NCBI RefSeq assembly: GCF_002927635.1
Contig: NZ_PRDS01000014.1
Coordinates: 1 to 33,245, forward strand
DNA length: 33,245 nt
DNA from: Albidovulum inexpectatum
GTDB taxonomy: Bacteria; Pseudomonadota; Alphaproteobacteria; Rhodobacterales; Rhodobacteraceae
Direction of reading: 5' to 3'
Shown: positions 1 to 14,540 of the stretch, piece by piece
How positions within the stretch are numbered: the stretch's first letter is position 1
Layout: each line of letters opens with the position of its first letter
The notes under the pieces: model-generated
What the model saw: only the letters and a program-made list of their open reading frames with translations
Told to the model about the DNA's origin: nothing
Database searches by the model: none
Program-made: the position numbers and the translations under genes

Positions 1-197
1 TCGGCCTCATTCAGATAGTCGAAGAACTGATCCATCTTGTCACGATCGCCCTCATCGTCACCGGTCTGGGCGGCCTGGCGTTGCCTGCGGAGGGCGCGCA
101 GGAATGACTTCAGACGCCGCTCGACCTCGTGCAACGTCGGCAGGTCGTCTTCGAACCGCAGAGCATGGAATGGAATCGTGGTCGTGGCACGGGGCAT
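1..197 (-). CDS. Unrecognised protein, N-terminal 65 residues only (runs off left edge)
   Basis: An open frame on the minus strand starts at the ATG whose complement is 195-197 and stays open to the window edge. It begins MPRATTTIPFHALRFEDD and continues with a charged, probably helical stretch rich in Arg, Gln and Asp. A good Shine-Dalgarno (AAAGGA, 8 nt before the ATG) supports this start. Codon use is GC-rich like its neighbours. I do not recognise the family. It lies downstream of the tnsABC-like operon in the same direction but is separated from it by a terminator and about 500 bases of repeat-rich DNA, so it is probably a separate transcription unit. The N-terminus does not resemble TniQ/TnsD. 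It could be transposon cargo or a flanking gene. Confidence 0.55.
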   Translation of the reverse strand, partial: MPRATTTIPFHALRFEDDLPTLHEVERRLKSFLRALRRQRQAAQTGDDEGDRDKMDQFFDYLNEA

Positions 198-292: not shown

Positions 293-467
293 GATTGCCT
301 CCAGTGACGCGATCCGGGGCGGCGTGTCAAATCAGGGGGGACGGGAAGCGGATGGCAAGCAGGTCGGGCGCAGGGTGATGCCTCACAAGCCATTGTTTTT
401 ACGACATAATCTTCGTTGAAAGCCGACTACCGCATCAACCAGCCTACCACCTTGCGCGCACTATTTC

Positions 468-539
468 GTTCCTTTGCGCGCACTTCTGGTTATTTTGGCA
501 CTTATTGCCAAAGCAACCAGAAGTGCGCGCAAAAAGAAC
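468..539. repeat. Long interrupted palindrome (about 30 bp of pairing)
   Basis: Positions 473-491 are the perfect reverse complement of 515-533 (19 bp). Inside, after a 2x2 mismatch, 494-500 pairs with 506-512 around the 5-nt loop CTTAT. Outside, 468-471 can pair with 536-539 across a small bulge. The arms carry TTTGCGCGCAC, a motif repeated nearby at 452-461 with 22-bp spacing. There is no T-tract on either side, so it is not a standard terminator. It could be paired transposase sites, a recombination site, a cruciform or a structured RNA. Confidence 0.75.
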
Positions 540-591
540 AAAGGGTGATTCGGCGATCTCGAAAAGCCAAGCTTTTTCAATGCGTTACGAG

Positions 592-650
592 ACTAAAAAT
601 TCGCTCGAAAACAATAAATTCGCGCAGGCAACAATAAGCCCGCGCAAACT
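592..650. repeat. Three tandem ~20-bp imperfect direct repeats
   Basis: Units at about 592-610, 611-630 and 631-650 share an AAATTCGC / CGCGCA core. Units two and three both begin ACAATAA and keep CGCGCA at the same offset, matching at 14 of 20 positions; the first unit is more diverged. Read on the minus strand the core is TGCGCG, the same word found in the palindrome arms. Array spacing fits protein-binding sites such as TnsB sites or iterons. Confidence 0.55.
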
Positions 651-694: not shown

Positions 695-724
695 GAAAAA
701 AGCCCGTGTTTGGGACACGGGCTT
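695..724 (-). terminator. Rho-independent terminator of the tnsABC-like operon
   Basis: Positions 700-709 pair perfectly with 715-724 (10 bp, GC-rich) around a 5-nt loop. On the minus strand the stem is followed directly by a run of six T (complement of 695-700). It lies 27 bases past the tnsC stop codon, as expected for the end of that operon. Confidence 0.85.
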
Positions 725-750: not shown

Positions 751-1716
751 CTACTGCCGCAGCGCTTCAAGGAAGGGATGATCCTTGCGGTACATCGTCT
801 CGTACGCTCTGTGGGTGAAGGGGGTCGCCGCGCGGTTGGCCTGCGTTTTCGAGACCCAGGCGTCGATGAAATGCCCCACTTGCAATTCAACTGCCCTGGC
901 AACGCGCGCAACTCCGACGGCGCCGATGGTCAGCTTGATGATCAGGCCCCAACGAAAAGCACCGGCCGTTGCAAGGCGGTGGTAGAAGTCTTCGGTGAGG
1001 ATGGCCTCATCCACCTCGAGACCGGCCTGCAGGGCATAACTGCCGACGATCTCATGGACCGTGTCATAGTCTTCTGGCAGTGAAACATCTTCAAACTCGA
1101 TGCGATTGACCAACCGGTGGAGTTGGGGCTCTTGGCGCAGGTAATCTTCCAGTTCCGGTACCCCCGAAAAGATCAGGATGAGGGGCCAGTCATGGGACTT
1201 CATGAGCGTCTTGAACGAGTCGAGGATCGCAAGCCGGTCGGCCTCATTCTTCTTGCGGAAGATGTGCTGTGCCTCGTCGTAGTGGATCCCCACGACCCCG
1301 GCGAGCCGGGCCTCGGTCACGACACGCTCCCAGATCTCAGCCTGGGTTAAACGTGCCTTGTCGTTGAGCGGGTATTCCAAGGCCCGGATCGTATTGCGCC
1401 CCAGATCCTTCCAGCTCTGCGTTCCACTCAGAATGCACTCGGCGAACCGGGCCGGGCGGCCGCCCGGCAACGGAATGCCGCTTGCGTTGAACCGTTTGAG
1501 AAGTTCGGCAATCTCTCTGGTCTTCCCGCTTCCGGATTGCCCAGTCACAAGGATACACTCGGTCTCGAACCGCGCTCCGCTCTCCAGGTTGCCGAGATGC
1601 TGGCTGAACACCCGGGCGAACTCGGTCTTGAGCCTCGTGGCCCGTTCAAGGGGAAAGACCCGATCGGCGGTGCTTGCCGCCGTGCTGCGGATGCCGGGGA
1701 TGACGAATTCACTCAC
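751..1716 (-). CDS. tnsC: TnsC/TniB-like AAA+ ATPase of a Tn7-like transposon
   Basis: This 321-residue protein should be the ATP-dependent regulator that links target choice to the transposase. Walker A is GQSGSGKT (59-66), Walker B is [11 protein letters not shown] (141-151), and a sensor-like strand [11 protein letters not shown] follows (179-189). This order is typical of TniB/TnsC and MuB-type ATPases. The length is closer to TniB and the short TnsC proteins of CRISPR-associated elements than to Tn7 TnsC (about 555 residues), so the C-terminal extension that contacts TnsD in Tn7 is absent. Translation starts at GTG (complement 1714-1716), overlapping the tnsB stop as GTGA; no in-frame ATG lies before the Walker region. 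It is the last gene of the operon, with a terminator 27 bases downstream. Confidence 0.87.
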
Positions 1717-3938
1717 AGTTTGCTCTCCTTTATGGGTTTGAAGGTCCGGCCTGGCCTGGGGGCGGTGTCCGGGGTTTCGGGCGGACCTTTCTGATCGTGG
1801 CCATGGTCCTTCCGAGATTCAGGCATCGCGTCTTCACGCATACTTGCCGGCGGGCTTTCGATTTCTGAAGCAGGCAAGGCTGCGGGAGGGGTACTCTCGT
1901 CGCGCTTCATGACCTGGCCGGGGAGTGTCGTGGGTGCGGAACGTGGCAGCGGAACCAATTCCACATGCGCCATCTCTTCCGCCAGCCGTCGGTATTTTTC
2001 CATCCGCTCATAGGACGAAGGCAGGTTGGAATCCGGAAAGTAACCGGACTCCCTGACGCGACGGGCACGGGCCTTTTTGAGATGCTCTTCGTGCAACGCG
2101 CGTTTTTCCGGGTTGTCTTCAACCGCCGCCCGCATGACAGCAATGGCCTCTTCCAGGGTCAGGTCGGCAAAGGTGGTCATCCGCAAATCTGCGGTCATCA
2201 CGTCTTTGGTCTCATCGCTGATCACCGTGACGTGTCGCAGATCGTCCGGGTTCAGGAAGACCGTCACGCGTTTCCGCTTGCCGCCTGCGAATTTCTGCAG
2301 CTCACCCGAGTTGTACGGGATCCCGAAGATCTTGACCCCTTCGGACGAGGTTGTTGCCGTGGCTTTTTCCCCCAGGTGGATGCGCAGCATCTCGGTATCC
2401 GGCGCGTCGATTTCGCCAAAGTATTTGGTGACTTCGTCGAGCTTCTGCATCGGGGTCGCGCTGAACATGCCGGTGCCGTTGTGACGATCATGCGGGTATT
2501 CATCGACGAAGAAGCGCGAAACATACCCCATCAGTTTCTCCGGAGTGAGTTCCGCATTCTTCTTGCCGTCATATCCATTCAATTCCCCGGGGCCACTTCC
2601 AACATAACCGGGCAGGAAGTTGAGAAGCCTCCACTGGAGGGTGCCGAACGGGCGTTCCCCGAAGGAATTGTCGACCGAATTGTATGTACGGCCGGTCACG
2701 ATGGTCGTGCCCATGCCAAGCAGGCTGGCATAGATGTCCTCGTTCCTGGTCGCCGTACCGTTGTCCGACTTCACAAGCTTCGGCCGGACTGGTGGGGCCG
2801 GATCGTGCGTGCAGCCATAGCGGATCTTCTCTCGCGTCTTGTCGCGCATCGCCATCCGCAGAAGTTTCTTCTGGTGATCGCCATCGGCGGTTTCGGAAAG
2901 CAACCAGGCCAGAGGCAGGCGCGTTGCCAGATCCATCATGTAGAACAGCCACAGGCGCCGGACCTCGCCCTCCTCCAAAGGCGTACCTTCTTTTTTTCGG
3001 TCGATCTCCCTGATCTTTTCTTCGCCCGATGAGTCCGTAAAGATCGACAAATAGACTTGGTCGGTCACGCAGGTCTCTCCGAATTTCAGGGCCCGAATAT
3101 CGGTGGAGCCGGCGCCGAACTTGTTCTGGGCGTATCGCCCGCCATTGCGGCCAATCTCCTTGACGAGCGAGCTCTCCGCCTTTGCCCGTTTCCGGACAGT
3201 AGTGATCGACGGAAACTCAAACCCCTGCAGAACCGCCTCCTCAGGAACGTCGAATACCTCCTTGGCATCCGTGTAGAGCGTGCCAAGTTTTGGTTGCCTG
3301 AGGTCGAGGAATTTATCGAGGACGAAATCGATGAACCGCTCCTGAGTCATGCAGAGGCGGCTTTTCCCTTTCTGCCAGCCCTTCTTGTTGTGCCGACGCA
3401 TGAGGACTACGGGATTGCGATCGAACTCCAGGAAAACTTGGCGCATCTCCTGGAGTTTCCGCCCTTTCGGGAGCGCGTGTGGGTTGGACGCACTCCCGAT
3501 ATTCGCGCAGCGGAACAGCTTCGTGTCTCCCGACAGTTTGACGGCCATCTTGCGCAGACGCTTCCTGACATCCCTGCGATCGAGATAGCGTTGCGTGAGC
3601 TTCGCGCCACTGGCCTCGAGCTTTTCCATGGCATGCACGAGGCCCAATCGGGCCCGCACATCCCGGCGCTCCTGTTCCGGAAGCTGCTCAACGCGCTCAT
3701 AGCCGCCCGTATACTCCAGCAGCTTCCTTTTGCTCTCGGCCTCTTTCGGGGTGATGAGGTGGGCATCGCCACACTTCAGGGCCTCGTCCACCCGATCGAA
3801 TGACAGCGTGACGCACTCGCCATCCTCGAGGCTTTCCACGGCGTACCCGCCCGGATCCTTCCCGACGACATGCCACCGCCGCCGGTCAAGGATCAGTTCG
3901 GACCCCTGCGGAACCTTATAAAGAGCACGCGGCGCCAT
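1713..3938 (-). CDS. tnsB: TnsB/TniA-like DDE transposase (Mu/Tn7 superfamily)
   Basis: A 741-residue DDE recombinase that should bind the transposon ends and catalyse strand transfer. The catalytic triad is readable: D293 (in CVTDQ), D392 (in KSDNGTA) and E428 (in [10 protein letters not shown]). The last two are separated by exactly 35 residues, the classical DD(35)E spacing of retroviral-integrase-type transposases. An N-terminal DNA-binding part occupies about 1-280 and a Mu-transposase-like C-terminal barrel about 520-600. A Pro/Ser-rich tail, where TnsB proteins usually contact TnsC, ends the protein. Length is close to Tn7 TnsB (702). The start ATG overlaps the upstream tnsA-like stop by one base (TGATG), and the stop overlaps the tnsC GTG, so the three genes are translationally coupled. 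It appears intact. Confidence 0.9.
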
Positions 3939-4669
3939 CAGGCCAGCCAGATCCGGGAATGCGGCCAGATGACCGCGTGCCAGTTCGCGCCCAGGAGCCC
4001 TTGGCCAATCAGCCGCAGGATGGCGTCAAAGGTCTTGCCCGAAGGCAGATCGCAGCGCGCGATCAGGTCTTTCATGAGCCAGAACGTGGTGCTGCGGGCG
4101 CGATCCAGAACATACGCGTCAACGTCCGGGTCCGCGGCTTTCGAGGCTTCCCAGACCCGAAGCAGGTTGTCCCGGTATCCTCGCGTGTATTGATCCCCGT
4201 TCACGACGACCTTGTCATCGGCGAAAGATTTTGGTGTCGCCTCGAAGATCGCTTCGATTTCGGCCTGGGTTTCCGGGCGCGCGAGGCTCCGGCCGTTGCG
4301 TACGAACACCGCCCGCCGAAACCCGTCGCGAAAGGTAATCCGCAGATCGAAACTGTGGGACCGCAGCTTTCCGTTGCGGCCACGATACGGGATGGGCGGA
4401 AGCTGAACCTCCAGCCCATACAATTCAGGGCTCAACAACGCCTCCAGTGCAACCGCCATCTCGCGCTGCCCATCGAAGTGATAGACCTTGCGCTGACCGC
4501 CGGTCGCAGGCGTTGCGATTGCCATTGATACCCGAGAGGTCGTCGAACTGCGGGTCAGCGGATTGCGATAGCCATCATAAGGCAGGACGCCGAAGATCGG
4601 CCCCACCCGCAGGGCAGGCTGCTTTTTCTGTTCGCCGAGCGAAGTATCCCAGTCCTGTTGATTTGCCAT
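3938..4669 (-). CDS. tnsA: TnsA-like endonuclease of a Tn7-like transposon, third catalytic motif altered
   Basis: The 243-residue product is assigned as TnsA, which nicks the 5' ends of the element in Tn7. Supporting evidence is its place directly before tnsB, its length, and a restriction-like core: E70 (GQREMAVAL) and D108 (SHSFDLRI) match the Glu and Asp of TnsA. Where Tn7 TnsA has Gln-x-Lys, this protein has F-V-R (122-124), so the catalytic Lys is replaced by Arg. The C-terminal part (about 150-240) resembles the TnsA winged-helix region. I chose the ATG at complement 4667-4669, which has GGAG five bases upstream; an in-frame ATG 39 bases earlier (4708) has a weaker site. The stop overlaps tnsB. 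The family call is less certain than for its two neighbours. Confidence 0.7.
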
Positions 4670-4802
4670 GACTTCTCCGTTCCCGAACGCCGGTGCGATC
4701 GAGTTCATGCATTTCCATCGTCGGGACAGGGATCGCGCTTGCCTGGGCCGTTTTCGGCCTCTAGTCTGGCAAGAGTTGACGGGCGATCTGCCCCACCTTC
4801 AT

Positions 4803-5697: not shown

Positions 5698-5879
5698 ATG
5701 ACCGCACTTTCCGCCCGCGACGCCAAGTACAACTTCGGCCGTCTGATCGACCTCGCCCGCGCCGAGCCGGTGGTGGTCGAGAAACACGGGCGCCCGGTCG
5801 TCGTGGTCCTGTCCGTCGAAGAATACGAAAGGCTGACCGGCAACAAGGTCGCCCCATCCCGACTGGAAGGTGAAGAGTG

Positions 5880-5880
<1 letters not shown>
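5698..5880 (+). CDS. Phd/YefM-family antitoxin-like protein, first gene of the R-M operon
   Basis: A 60-residue protein with the Phd/YefM fold signature: a short N-terminal stretch ([17 protein letters not shown]), then [24 protein letters not shown]. Family members bind DNA with the N-terminal part and neutralise a Doc, RelE or PIN toxin with a C-terminal tail; here the tail is only about 12 residues. Shine-Dalgarno GGAGG lies 7 bases before the ATG. No toxin gene is adjacent; instead the stop overlaps hsdM (TGATG). Such orphan Phd-like genes are known at the head of type I R-M operons, where a role as operon repressor is plausible. The family call is firm; the role is inferred. Confidence 0.85.
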
Positions 5881-8600
<2,720 letters not shown>

Positions 8601-8604
<4 letters not shown>

Positions 8605-9779
8605 GTGGGCCGGAACTTGCGGAGCAACCCTACTACGAGAAGCTTCCTTTGTGGCCAAGTTTTGATGTGGTCGACACATCCATCGATGGGCTCGTTCCCG
8701 CTTGTCGTGTGGAGAGCTGGAAAGCTTTCGTTGATATCATCAGTGTGGGCGAGGCGCGTGCGGCGCGTGAGGTCATTTACCGTGGGCAACGGCGTTACGA
8801 TTGGCCGCTAGAGTCGACTTTGACCCGAGTCTTCGATGGAGGCGCGATCCCATCAGATATGGCCGACCGCATGCGCTCCAAGTTTCTTCTGATGATGCGT
8901 GGTCGCAGCTTTGACCTCTCCAAGCAGGACAGCAATGAGGTATGGGCATTCGGGCAACACTTTGGGCTGGCAACTCCGCTTTTGGATTGGACGGAGTCGC
9001 CCTTTGTTGCGCTGTTCTTTGCATTCGTAAGAGAAGACCCAAGGTATGAGAAGGAAAATCCAAGTCGAGCGGTTTTTTACTTGGATCGATCGAGACTAGA
9101 AGAAATATTGCCCGAGTTGTTTTTTGAGCCTTCTTTGGGTGAGAATGGTCGCCTCGTAAACCAGGCTGGCTTGTTCACGGTGACGCCGGACGGAAATGAT
9201 AATCTCGTTACCTCGATATTGAATGCACTTTTGGATGTCGGCTCAATTGGTCCCGACGATCCGCAAGAGCTTTCTCAGTACATCGGAAAAATCCATATTC
9301 CAAACGAAGGTCGAGAACAGTGTCTGCACATGCTTCAAAAAATGAACATACATCACGCAAGTCTGTTTCCGGATCCATCAGGCGCCTCTGATTACTGCAA
9401 TATTTGGCTTGAAAAATTGGTCTCCGAGAGACGCAAACAAAAAGAAAACAAATCGAAAGCTGATAAAAAGAGAATTGATGTTGCGGCGCAAGCAGTACGG
9501 GGAGAGGAGGCACCGAAGCTTGTTGCCAAAATACTGGAAAAAATAATCGGAGAAAATGCAGAAGATCTAGAAATATCGCGATTTGCGAACAGAATAGACG
9601 AGAAATTTGCTGAGGAAGCATCGACGGACTGGTGGCTAAGACCTGGAGCCAAGGCTAAACTGCGCGTTGCGTTCCGCCGTTTGCTTTCCTCGTTTGGGAT
9701 TTCGCAGGAGCAAGTAGAACGGATCATTGAAGAGTTGATCCGATTCTATGAGATCCGCGCCCAACGCAAGGCCGATTAG
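8601..9779 (+). CDS. FRG-domain protein inside the type I R-M operon
   Basis: A 392-residue protein with the FRG domain, a module of unknown biochemical function found in many defence-associated and phage genes. The signature is clear: VIYRGQRRYDWPLESTLTR (58-76), with the family's YRGQ and W-x-L elements, then QHFGLATPLLDWTESPF (119-135). The C-terminal half (about 290-392) is charged, Lys- and Glu-rich and not recognised. I chose ATG 8601, which overlaps the hsdS stop as ATGA. An upstream in-frame start (8550) would run through hsdS coding sequence. From about 9040 the gene is strongly AT-rich compared with the other R-M genes, suggesting separate acquisition. hsdR begins 6 bases after its stop, so it belongs to the operon. 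Confidence 0.88.
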
Positions 9780-9785
9780 ATTTCA

Positions 9786-12700
9786 ATGACCTTCCTCACC
9801 GAAGACGACATCGAGAAGGCCCTGATCGCCAGGTTCGGCGAGCTTGGGTATGCGAACGCGCCTGATGCCGTCATCGGCCCGGACGGCACCGCGCCCGAGC
9901 GAGCGGCCTATGATGACGTGATCCTGCACGGGCGGCTGGAAGCGGCAGTCGAACGGCTGAACCCCCACATTCCCGCCGAGGCGCGCGAAGAGGCGATCAA
10001 GCAGGTTCTGAGGTCGGAAAGCGCTTCGCTTGTCGAGGAAAACCGCAGGCTTCACCGGCTGATCGTCGAAGGCGTGAATGTGGAGTTTCACGCCGACGAT
10101 GGGACCATTCGCGGCGACAAGGTGCGCCTGGTTGATTTTGACGACCCGGACGCCAACGACTGGCTGGTCGTCGACCAGATGGTCGTGATCGAGAACGGCC
10201 GCAACCGCCGGCCCGACGTGGTCGTCTTCGTGAACGGCCTGCCGCTGGCGGTGATCGAGCTGAAGAACCCGGGTGCCGAGACGGCGACGCTCACCGCCGC
10301 CTACAATCAGCTTCAGACCTACAAGGCCGAGATTCCTTCACTCTTTCGGACCAACGCCTTGTTGGTGATCTCCGACGGCACCTTGGCCCGGGTTGGCTCC
10401 CTTACAGCCAATGAGGAGCGCTTCATGCCCTGGCGTACCACCGATGGGCGCGAGGTGGCGCCGAAGGGCAGCCCCGAGATGGACGTGCTGATCGAGGGCG
10501 TCTTCGAGAAGCGGCGCTTGCTGGAACTCATCCGCGACTTCACCGTGTTTGGCGACACCGGCTCGGGGATCGTCAAGATCATCGCCGGCTACCACCAGTT
10601 CCACGCGGTCAAGAAGGCGGTTCAGAGCACACTTCGCGCAACTGCCGTCGATGGCGACCGCAAGGCCGGGGTGATCTGGCACACGCAAGGTTCGGGAAAG
10701 AGCCTGCTCATGGCGTTCTTCGCTGGCCAGCTGGTGCGCCACCCCCAGATGGAGAACCCAACCATCGTCGTGCTCACGGACCGCAACGATCTCGACGATC
10801 AGCTGTTTCAGACCTTTTCCATGTGCCGCGATCTGATCCGCCAGACTCCCGAGCAGGCGGAGAGCCGCGAACATCTGCAACAGGTCCTGAACCGTGTCTC
10901 CGGCGGGATCATCTTCACGACCCTGCAGAAGCTGTCGGAAGGTAAGATGACCGACCGGCGCAACGTGGTCGTTATCGCCGATGAGGCCCACCGGAGCCAC
11001 TACGGATTCCGAGCAAAGATTGACCCGAAGACCGGCAAGCGCACCTATGGTTTCGCGAAACTCCTCCGGGATGCGCTGCCCAATGCGTCTTTCATCGGCT
11101 TCACCGGAACGCCGATCGAAAAGGACAATGTGAACACCCCCGCCGCCTTTGGCGACTACATCGACATCTACGACATCACCCGCGCGGTCGAGGATGGCGC
11201 GACGGTGCCCATCTACTACGAGAGCCGACTGGCTCGCATCGAGCTGCCCGAGGAGGAGAAGCCGAGGATCGATGCCGAGATCGAGGCGCTGACAGAAGAC
11301 GAAGCCCTTTCTGAGCAGGAGAAGCTCAAGCAGAAATGGTCAAACGTCGAGGCGCTGGTTGGAGCCGAGAAGCGCCTGAAAATGGTCGCGGCCGATATCG
11401 TCCAGCATTTCGAGCGGCGGCTCGCCGCACTTGATGGCAAGGGCATGATCGTCTGCATGAGCCGGCGAATCTGCGTCGCGCTTTACAACGAGATCGTGGC
11501 GCTTCGTCCCGAGTGGCATTCCGACGATGACAATGCAGGCGTCATCAAGATCGTGATGACAGGGTCGGCATCGGATCCGGCGGATTGGCAACCACACATC
11601 GGCAACAAGGCGCGCAGGGATCTGATCGCGAAGCGCGCCAAGGATCCGGACGATCCGCTGAAACTCGTGATCGTTCGCGACATGTGGCTGACGGGTTTCG
11701 ACGCCCCGTCGATGCATACGATGTACATTGACAAGCCGATGCAGGGTCACGGGCTAATGCAGGCCATCGCTCGGGTGAACCGCGTCTTCCGGGACAAACC
11801 CGCCGGTCTCGTGGTGGATTACATCGGGATCGCGCAAAGCCTGAAGAACGCGTTGGGCCAGTATTCCGAGAGCGACCGGCGCCAAGCCGGCATTGATGAG
11901 GCCGAGGCGGTGGCGGAAATGCTGAAGCGCTACGAGGTCGTTCGGGATCACTTCCATGGGTTCGACTACAGCCAAGCCTTGAACGGGGAACCGTCAGATC
12001 GCCTCCGGACGCTCGCCGCAGCAATGAACTGGATCCTGGAGCGCCAGCACGCGGCAGCCGCCAAGGAGGCAGACGAAGAAGCAAGAAAGAAGGCCCTTCG
12101 GCGGTACCAAGACGACGTCCTTGCGCTATCGAAAGCGTTCGCCTTGGCAGCGGCCAGCGAAGAGGCTCAGACAATTCGCGATGAAGTCGGTTTCTTCCAG
12201 GCCGTTCGGGTGGCGCTTGTAAAGGCGACGCAAGGTACAGGTGGCTCGGCCGCCGACAAGCGCCTTGCCGTTCAGCAAATCATCGACAGGTCCGTGGTTT
12301 CAACAGAGATCGTCGATATCCTCTCGGCGGCCGGCCTCAAGTCGCCAGATATCTCGATACTATCGGATGAGTTCCTGGCAGAAGTCCGGCAGATGGAACA
12401 AAAAAACCTAGCGCTTGAGGCCCTCAAGAAGCTGCTGAACGACGAGATCAGATCTCGCGCCCGGTCAAACGTCGTCGAGAGCAAGAAGTTTTCTGAGCGG
12501 TTGGAGCAGGCCGTTGCGCGGTACCACACGAATGCGATCAGCACTGTCGAAGTGCTCCAAGAGCTGATCGAACTGGCGCATGACATTCGAGAGGCCAGGA
12601 AGAGGGGCGAGGAAGAAGGCCTGACCGAGGAAGAGATCGCCTTCTACGACGCTCTCGCCACCAATGAAAGCGCGATCGAGGTCCTTGGGAACGATTCACT

Positions 12701-12905
12701 CAAGCTGATCGCGCACGAGCTTCTGGAGAGCCTCAAGTCGAACGTGACTGTGGACTGGTCCCATCGCGAGTCCGCAAGGGCACGCATGCGGGTTCTGGTG
12801 AAACGCATCTTGCGTAAGTACGGGTATCCTCCAGACCTGCAGGACGCTGCGATCAGGACCGTTCTGCAACAGGCGGAAGCGCTGTCTTCGCAATGGGCCA
12901 ATTGA
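9786..12905 (+). CDS. hsdR: Type I restriction endonuclease/translocase subunit HsdR
   Basis: HsdR (1039 residues) is the motor and nuclease subunit that pulls DNA past the bound enzyme and cleaves unmodified DNA. An N-terminal PD-(D/E)xK nuclease is seen as D144 followed by E158-x-K160 (AVIELK). The superfamily 2 motor has Walker [10 protein letters not shown] (299-307), DEAH box (399-402) and motif III FTGTP (439-443), with the second RecA-like lobe up to about 700 and a helical C-terminal part that normally docks on HsdM/HsdS. Length is in the normal HsdR range. It is the last gene of the operon. No obvious terminator follows. It appears intact, so the system is probably active. Confidence 0.96.
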
Positions 12906-13637
12906 GTGCCGTTGGTTCGAGAAAACAATGTTGATTTGAACCCACCGCGAGGCGCGGCACCGCTGGCAGCGCGCTCCACACCCGTCGGGACGCTGGCGAA
13001 CGTCCGATCCCGGTCATTTCTGCGAGAATGCCACCCACATCAAAGTGTTCAGGTTTCGTTACAAAATAATGACGTGTTTCCAGAGCCTTGCGAAAAATTC
13101 ACCAAATCTGCGCAGTCAACAGGTTCAGAGAGTATCGGCCCGGAGAGACCGATTTCAGGCCTTCGGCGCCGCCGGCGGTGAACAGCCCCTCCCGCATAAC
13201 CCTCGAAAACAACGGAAAAATCCGGGCGCGCGCGAGGCAAGAGAAACAGTTCGGGAAAACAAGTGGCGGAGGGAATGGGACTGCGGTCGGACCTTCTCTG
13301 CCGTTAACCCATTGATTTTAATTTCGATATGATCACTCCTACCCTCCAAGCGAATGACAACGGTTCCCCCACCGCACGCTGCAATCTTGATACCGATCAG
13401 ATTCCGTCTGCCCGAAGCCAGTAGTTGGTGGCGTGGAGTGTGCCCCATTCAGCCATTCACTGCGCGCCGTCTCAAGGATAATGATGCGGAACAAAGCCGA
13501 CCTCTCATTCGTAATTCCTAGCGTCTGCCGTTGGTCCATCGCGACCATGGTCGCTTGTCAGAACTTGCGGCAGTTCATGCCAGTTGCTTACGGCGAAATG
13601 TCATGCATGATCGTGAAAACTGATCCTGTAGGACGCA
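12906..13637. other. Gene-free region between hsdR and the LysR gene
   Basis: About 730 bases with no convincing gene; open frames are short, lack ribosome sites and resemble no family I know. No T-tailed terminator after hsdR was found. A 10-bp palindrome TCATGCATGA lies at 13601-13610, 28 bases before the LysR start, where a regulator could bind. The composition shifts along the stretch, suggesting a junction between the R-M island and the catabolic region. Confidence 0.5.
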
Positions 13638-14540
13638 ATGATAAAAAGTCAGATAACCCTAAAGCAACTCGAAGCTTTTGCCTTTGTCGTGGACACTGGC
13701 ACCTTCCGCGCCGCCGCAACTGCTCTCGGAACGACGCAACCCAACATCTCATCCCGGATTTCTGCTCTGGAAATGGCTTTGGATGTCACGCTTCTCTATC
13801 GAGATGCAGGTTCCGTACGCCTGACCGAGAAGGGTCGGGAGCTCCTCGTTCTAACACGGGACATTCTTCGCGCCGGAGAAGCCCTGTTGGAGGCAGCGGG
13901 ACGGCAAGAGTTGATCCAAGAACGCCTTCGGCTTGGTGTCACAGAACTTGTGGCTTGCACATGGCTGCAAAATTTCCTGCGGCTTTTGCGACAAGAGTAC
14001 CCAAACCTGCGCGTCGAGCTGGAGGTCGATCTATCCCGTCAGATTGAAGAGCGCTTGCGCGAGGGACGGCTCGATCTGGCGCTGCAGAACGGTCCTTTTG
14101 CATTTCAAGCCACCGGCGAAAAGGCGTTGGCCGAGGAACCTTATGTCTGGGTCGCCAACACGGACCTTGCGAACGAGCTGGCAGGCGGGACATCGGTCGC
14201 GCGTTTCTTTGACAAGGCCGTCTTGACCCATGCCCGTCATACGAGCGCTGCGCGTGCGCTGCACGATCTTGCTGCAACGGAGGGCTATGACGCGGGCAAG
14301 ATCATTCACTCAAGCGCTCTGTCCGCGTGTCTTCCGATGGTCAATGAAGGCTTGGGGGTTGCGTTGCTGCCCCGCTCCCTGGTCTCGGAGGAGATGAAAG
14401 ACGGACGCTTGCAGTCTCTCAAGTCGGATTGGATTGCGCCACCGCTTTCGTTTTTTGCCCGTTTCAACGCGGATCGTGCACCGCGCTTCGTTGCCAAGGC
14501 TTGTGAGATTGCAGCATCCGTTCGGCCAGCGGAAGTGTAG
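13638..14540 (+). CDS. LysR-family transcriptional regulator, likely controls the hyu operon
   Basis: A 300-residue LysR protein. The winged helix-turn-helix occupies about 6-66 (ITLKQLEAFAFVVDTGTF, then TALGTTQPNISSRISALE, a typical recognition helix), followed by the linker helix and a substrate-binding domain (about 90-295) that would sense a pathway compound. The ATG is preceded by TAGGA at a good distance. Unlike most LysR genes it points the same way as its probable target operon, which starts about 100 bases downstream. A TTT-N11-AAA box lies in that gap. The ligand is unknown. Confidence 0.93.
   Translation: MIKSQITLKQLEAFAFVVDTGTFRAAATALGTTQPNISSRISALEMALDVTLLYRDAGSVRLTEKGRELLVLTRDILRAGEALLEAAGRQELIQERLRLGVTELVACTWLQNFLRLLRQEYPNLRVELEVDLSRQIEERLREGRLDLALQNGPFAFQATGEKALAEEPYVWVANTDLANELAGGTSVARFFDKAVLTHARHTSAARALHDLAATEGYDAGKIIHSSALSACLPMVNEGLGVALLPRSLVSEEMKDGRLQSLKSDWIAPPLSFFARFNADRAPRFVAKACEIAASVRPAEV

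Follow-up and report, generated by a model that had tools for sequence, protein, structure and literature searches.

Tn7-like elements are described, in the available excerpts of PMC11406308, as relying on a selector that binds an attachment gene, with insertion beside that gene at a 5-bp stagger, the gene surviving and the site remaining open; by the convention in the same excerpts, the right end is the one that lies upstream of tns. A second insertion is normally hindered by target immunity (excerpts of PMC11406308 and PMC11702153). PMC8649781 (excerpt) mentions neighbouring elements with multiple ends, and tandem CAST insertions occur at a low level, being rare because of target immunity (PMC11702153, excerpts). 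Among CASTs, types I-B2 and I-D home to tRNA genes, CyCAST insertion lying 30-33 nt from the tRNA (PMC10293859, excerpts). Here we analyse a stretch of 33,245 nucleotides from Albidovulum inexpectatum (hereafter the window), which is the whole of contig C14 in a genome of 2,997,984 bases and 27 contigs, and in which a strong palindrome lies beside tnsC. We consider it very probable that two Tn7-like elements from the same subfamily adjoin here head to tail, and that this region is their seam. Stacking of Tn7-like elements is already known and usually suppressed, and the locus is a clear natural example of it, not a new kind of system.

Structurally, the locus resembles Tn7 and other systems built on TnsABC and TniQ/TnsD in the order of its putative tnsA, tnsB and tnsC, its large 615-aa TniQ, its probable 5-bp duplication and its restriction cargo, and also in having end arrays of ~20-22-bp sites, with a compact right end that faces the attachment gene and a spread-out left end. 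Unlike Tn7, it uses tRNA-Arg(CCT) and not glmS as attachment site, has termini TGCCA..TGGCA where those of Tn7 are TGT..ACA, and has TniQ beside a Lon-like ATPase at the end towards the tRNA, cargo separating these two from tnsABC (as in Ruegeria intermedia). The tRNA-homing CASTs of types I-B2 and I-D (PMC10293859, excerpts) likewise insert a few tens of bp beyond a tRNA gene; no CRISPR-Cas family was found among 20 window ORFs compared with Pfam, and the distance from the tRNA is 16-20 nt versus 30-33 nt for CyCAST in those excerpts. As in the tandem CAST insertions of PMC11702153 (excerpts), two elements have ends meeting at one site, whereas the present case is natural, its seam can be read to the base in two hosts, and its right-end units are ~9-10% apart. 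A literature search covering titles and abstract starts of the best-ranked papers, with most subscription journals outside its scope, found no account of this subfamily, nor of a Rhodobacterales Tn7-like element inserted at tRNA-Arg(CCT).

The palindrome and site arrays beside tnsC

The genes of the first element, which we call element A, are these:

751..1716, minus strand: tnsC (AAA+ / TniB), with TniB at 23.5 bits (cut-off 22.4) and AAA_22 at 48.7 (cut-off 27)
1713..3938, minus strand: tnsB transposase, with Mu-transpos_C at 29.7 bits (cut-off 21.7) and rve at 26.6, below its cut-off of 32.6
3938..4708, minus strand: putative tnsA, by position, size and conservation only
5877..12905, plus strand: Type I restriction-modification cargo (hsdM, hsdS, FRG-domain gene, hsdR)

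TnsB also had structural matches, to solved chains of TnsB and of TnsAB (E 1e-4 to 4e-4), and is predicted to be a DDE transposase of the TnsB type; TnsC, which had no solved-structure match at E 0.01, is predicted from its domains to be the AAA+ regulator of a Tn7-like element. The putative TnsA is conserved in 7/7 aligned loci, gave no Pfam, PADLOC or NCBIfam match and nothing below E 0.26 in a PDB profile search, and its structure model (pLDDT 38.5) was too poor for a fold search. Among viral contigs, the TnsA alignment showed 0 of 30 stretches to be related and the TnsC alignment 1 of 74 (L092). Within the cargo, the FRG-domain gene (window 8550-9779) sits between hsdS and hsdR and is PADLOC candidate PDC-S15.

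Beyond tnsC, the window reads, towards its first base, as follows:

700..724, minus strand: terminator-like site after tnsC, weak (2 such sites in 1-1500 vs 1.8 expected in shuffles)
629..648, plus strand: putative TnsB site, left end (motif and profile)
609..628, plus strand: putative TnsB site, left end (motif and profile)
590..609, plus strand: degenerate putative TnsB site, left end, placed by eye in register with the next sites (its R. intermedia counterpart scores 12.7)
506..533, plus strand: terminus TGCCAAAGC.. of the left end, on the side of tnsC; its terminal putative TnsB site is 514-533; identical 28 nt in R. intermedia
501..505, no strand: predicted target-site duplication, 5 bp between the two termini (ATAAG on the minus strand, outward from tnsC)
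473..500, minus strand: terminus TGCCAAAAT.. of the second element's right end; its terminal putative TnsB site is 492-473
451..470, minus strand: the right end's other putative TnsB site, spaced 22 bp from the terminal one (motif and profile)
1..197, minus strand: start (aa 1-65) of the second element's Lon-like AAA+ ATPase, truncated where the contig ends, 98% to the copy on contig C1

The palindrome has two 28-nt arms (473-500 and 506-533) with 5 nt between them, which are complementary at 26 of 28 positions (93%) and perfect over the outer 19 bp. The earlier note on this DNA had picked out motif copies together with a perfect 19-bp inverted repeat, and both are real, the full repeat being the 28-nt one. 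When the best 28-nt inverted repeat with a loop of 0-10 was sought, none of 60 dinucleotide shuffles (positions 1-1500, first 301 nt) exceeded 18/28 (mean 14.8), versus 26/28 observed (400-700). The sequence TGCGCGCAA(A/G) stands at 451-460(-), 473-482(-) and 524-533(+), and ACAATAANNNCGCGCANNC stands, exact in both copies, at 611-629(+) and 631-649(+). Counted alone, such short motifs are weak evidence: with mismatches allowed, the window holds 10 copies of the former vs 5.5 expected (a count reached in 5/100 shuffles) and 4 of the latter vs 3.0 expected (reached in 32/100). The non-random feature is their arrangement. A 20-bp site profile, which was built from the seam sites and related sites and is not independent evidence, placed the window's five best scores (24.6-30.8) all in the seam region, the next best being 14.9.

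The sites form two groups, one on the minus strand (451-470, 473-492) and one on the plus strand (514-533, 609-628 and 629-648, plus the degenerate 590-609), and the outer termini of the two groups are bases 500 and 506, exactly 5 bp apart. The units at 592-650 had been said to face the copy at 523-533; the units of 590-650 run in the same direction as 514-533 and opposite to 451-492. A right end has two sites 22 bp apart, a spacing repeated in the right ends of C1, R. intermedia, T. mobilis and P. ferrooxidans, and a left end has a terminal site, a gap and two to three sites ~20 bp apart. By sequence, the asymmetric left and right ends appear to be arrays of putative TnsB-binding sites. From this layout, the hairpin is best read as two inverted termini, TGCCA…TGGCA, meeting across a target-site scar. 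Genome-wide, the terminal-end pattern gave three exact matches in 3.0 Mb and its reversed control none (3 mismatches allowed); a dispersed genomic repeat was rejected on the same count of three end copies.

Folded as single-stranded RNA, the palindrome is very stable (z-score -10.8), as a structured RNA (a possibility raised in the earlier note) or a transcription terminator would be. It had, though, no Rfam match at gathering score, and no intrinsic terminator, taken as a G+C stem with a T run behind it, was called at 473-533, the palindrome not being among the two terminator-like calls in 1-1500; the left ends of relatives, described below, bear further on this explanation.

Right ends at tRNA-Arg(CCT) and the Ruegeria intermedia array

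Elsewhere in the genome, where the earlier note had proposed looking for a second motif copy, the minus-strand half recurs once, at C1:633942, 16 nt past a tRNA-Arg(CCT) gene. Behind this right end, C1 encodes a 366-aa Lon-like AAA+ ATPase, whose family matches are to AAA, with the Lon model far below its cut-off, and then a 615-aa TniQ protein. Since the same ATPase gene begins at window 197(-), window 500-1 is a right end of the C1 type, and the two units are 91-92% identical; window 1-106 is an exact 106-bp repeat shared with C1, and the contig starts inside this repeat. Both R. intermedia elements encode the 615-aa TniQ, as the C1 copy does, and none is found in the window, whose contig stops inside the ATPase gene. 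Judged from the C1 and R. intermedia copies, TniQ is the likely target selector of the subfamily, of the TniQ/TnsD kind.

The one relative returned by the contig search was R. intermedia DSM 29341 (tnsB 97%). In the direction of tnsABC, its contig carries tRNA-Arg(CCT), 20 nt, a right end, the ATPase, TniQ, cargo that includes a GmrSD-type restriction gene, tnsA-B-C and a left end, and continues with GT, a second right end, the ATPase, a second TniQ and, at the contig end, the 3' end of hsdR. The end pattern has three matches on this contig (control 1), and the order of its parts identifies it as a head-to-tail element pair, with one TnsB locus found when a second tnsABC was sought. As a side observation, three further hsdR fragments of R. 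intermedia (L088, L089 and L090, on C59, C62 and C31), 95-96% to the window's HsdR, begin at contig ends, two of them being short; they suggest several cargo copies and perhaps a longer array.

A seam of this form would also arise if a single element had formed a circle or a head-to-tail dimer, its left and right ends joined through a short spacer of a few bp. The terminus of element B (the second element, at 500-451) is indeed the closest of the compared right ends to the left-end terminus of A (26/28, vs 25/28 for C1 and R. intermedia), and, as the contig begins in the 106-bp exact C1 repeat, B can be followed in this genome only into that repeat. The R. intermedia array, however, lies on a single linear contig and has two right ends that are 9.9% apart over ~500 nt, and since these units have diverged, that seam is not a circle or a copy of one element; pairwise, the four right-end units (~500 nt) are 88.8-91.4% identical (8.6-11.2% different), within and between genomes alike. 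The window's contig, moreover, runs into GTA genes on its other side, which leaves no closed circle. We regard a circle or dimer as very improbable, and favour the seam of two elements.

The spacer itself can be compared with the flanks at the tRNA genes. If A inserted where B already stood, ATAAG is the expected duplicated 5-mer. The tRNA-side flank at C1 reads ..CAA ATAAG TGCC|TGCCAAAGC, holding the window's 5-mer again with TGCC repeated, and ATAAG is in register only if this extra 4-bp TGCC is allowed for; the chance of a given 5-mer somewhere in a 16-nt flank is estimated at about 1%. The seam of R. intermedia, GT|TGCCAAAGC, has a spacer of 2 bp and not 5, and as it stands is no 5-bp duplication; with a tRNA flank of ..GTTGC|TGCCAAAGC, its GT could reflect a 3-bp slip, the loss of one TGC unit. 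Both fits, in the window and in R. intermedia, would thus need one small slip.

Single ends in other relatives

On plasmid pFER4 of P. ferrooxidans (tnsB 42%), one element stands alone: its right end lies ~17 bp after guaD (L047 13392) and its left end stops ~23 kb on (L047 36622), with the same site layout and the same TGCCA..TGGCA termini. CTTTT occurs immediately outside both ends. The outside identity continues into TGCC, so a duplication length of 5 bp presupposes an element that begins at TGCCA. This element fixes the termini by comparison and supports a 5-bp duplication for the family, a feature the earlier note had asked after and which, taking CTTTT together with the window's spacer, the subfamily probably has. 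Along with each end occurring alone elsewhere, it makes clustered TnsB-type sites at which two transposon ends met, one of the explanations put forward in the earlier note, the best reading of the region. The P. ferrooxidans element (L047 13392-36622) also carries two TniQ genes, DUF6634 genes and a restriction system.

Across related loci, a tnsC-side left end could be placed in eight (the comparison left out L043, whose contig ends just after tnsC, and L044 and L048, with decayed tnsC). An end after tnsC had been thought odd by comparison with Tn7; it is the ordinary left end, the right end being, by the convention given in excerpts of PMC11406308, the one upstream of the tns genes. An inverted partner adjoins the left end in only two of the eight (26/28 in the window, 25/28 in R. 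intermedia); the other six have a best inverted match of 9-11 of 28.

These counts bear on the proposal that the double end is a fixed site of one element with a function of its own, in resolution, recombination or regulation. The order tnsC, double end, ATPase is common to two genomes, as such a site would predict, whereas the spacers differ between hosts (ATAAG vs GT), unlike expectation for a fixed site, and ATAAG also stands in this genome's tRNA flank. The halves are also found apart, as right ends at the C1 and R. intermedia tRNA genes and as both ends singly in P. ferrooxidans, six of eight left ends lack the partner, and Pfam revealed no site-specific recombinase family among 20 window ORFs. 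A fixed site, including the recombination or resolution site suggested earlier, is highly improbable. The occurrence of the halves separately is likewise unlike expectation for one RNA or for a terminator, as is the missing inverted partner in six of eight left ends, and despite the stable fold we rate the probability of either as close to negligible. The seam of two elements remains our reading.

In T. mobilis, ~12 nt, judged by eye, separate a right-end-like terminus from the 3' half of tRNA-Arg(CCT), a half that is 48/49 identical to that of R. intermedia; only this 3' half is present beside the end on the plasmid (L046 32400-32490). The tnsC-side end (23475) points the same way as the right-end-like one, so the two are not a simple pair, and the locus appears to be rearranged or to hold two elements. 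Taken together, the elements seem to insert next to a conserved gene towards which the right end points: tRNA-Arg(CCT) for C1 and R. intermedia, the half tRNA-Arg for T. mobilis and guaD for P. ferrooxidans.

At family level, TnsB was detected at E <= 1e-30 in 15 of 394 genomes, own included, and wide regions were examined for 5 of the 14 other family genomes with TnsB and for 3 of 55 plasmid records. Within the genus, 3/22 genomes gave TnsB matches: this genome itself and two more, whose identity was 21-27%. Among congeners, tRNA-Arg and a neighbouring gene that we take to be SCO1-like fall within one match in 3/21 (L085, L086 and L087). In all three, similarity to C1 stops <=7 nt from the tRNA, and nothing downstream matches the compared C1, window or R. 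intermedia stretches; because the similarity ends at the tRNA, no downstream flank or clean empty site is definable. The tRNA-Arg(CCT) gene may be a general integration hot spot.

Probable stacking at one site, target immunity and the fate of element A

Mechanistically, we posit that the left end at 506-650 closes element A beyond tnsA-tnsB-tnsC; the 5-bp target duplication (501-505) would follow, and then element B, with its right end (500-451) and the Lon-like ATPase gene. The large TniQ would recognise the 3' part of tRNA-Arg(CCU), and TnsC would recruit TnsA and TnsB for a cut-and-paste insertion, right end facing the tRNA, ~16-20 bp past it and with a 5-bp stagger. The tRNA gene would stay intact, the site would remain open, and a later related element could insert at the same base pairs and push the older one away, giving a seam of left end, 5 bp and right end. 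The younger element would presumably be the one nearer the tRNA.

Under this scheme, the right end of element A in this genome would be the C1 copy; against it, A is not contiguous with the C1 tRNA locus in the draft assembly. Window 12617-13230, comprising the 3' end of hsdR and the stretch beyond, is an 89.5% match to the second element of R. intermedia. To the right of 13,230, the contig enters LysR/hydantoinase genes, after which the GTA genes come, and no right end or TniQ was found there. Element A's own right part has been lost, rearranged or misassembled, a rearrangement or an assembly break being likely. The genome yielded a single copy each of tnsB, tnsC and TniQ, and machinery belonging to element B itself was not seen. 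Separately, window 12617-13640 and C1 (L005 13440-14050) exit the element at about the same stretch upstream of TniQ, and beyond this point enter unrelated genes (LysR/hydantoinase in the window, TetR on C1), as if a rearrangement or misassembly had split one element between C14 and C1.

The interest of the locus is that an attachment site appears to have been reused despite target immunity, closely related ends being stacked side by side. Target immunity should hinder such stacking, and so the pair offers a natural test of how different ends must be before immunity fails. This subfamily might not enforce immunity at its own attachment site, or might escape it through ~10% divergence, which would lead to growing arrays of defence genes at the same base pairs; we offer this tentatively and think it rather doubtful. 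If true, seams with two inverted termini would let neighbours move together, or let elements without tnsABC move in trans. More practically, the seam yields base-precise ends, a duplication size and an attachment site for a Tn7-like subfamily whose apparent target is tRNA-Arg(CCU) and which has named relatives in Rhodobacterales. For annotation, it warns against taking every strong palindrome next to tnsC for an RNA or an operator, since such a palindrome can be the seam of two elements.

The Lon-like AAA+ ATPase travels with the elements (L005 10246-11346 on C1, L022 13738-14838 in R. intermedia, L047 24072-25160 in Paracoccus), adjoining the right end in two genomes and lying after tnsC in Paracoccus, where the copy is 38% identical. 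Rather than cargo, this gene may be an accessory one.
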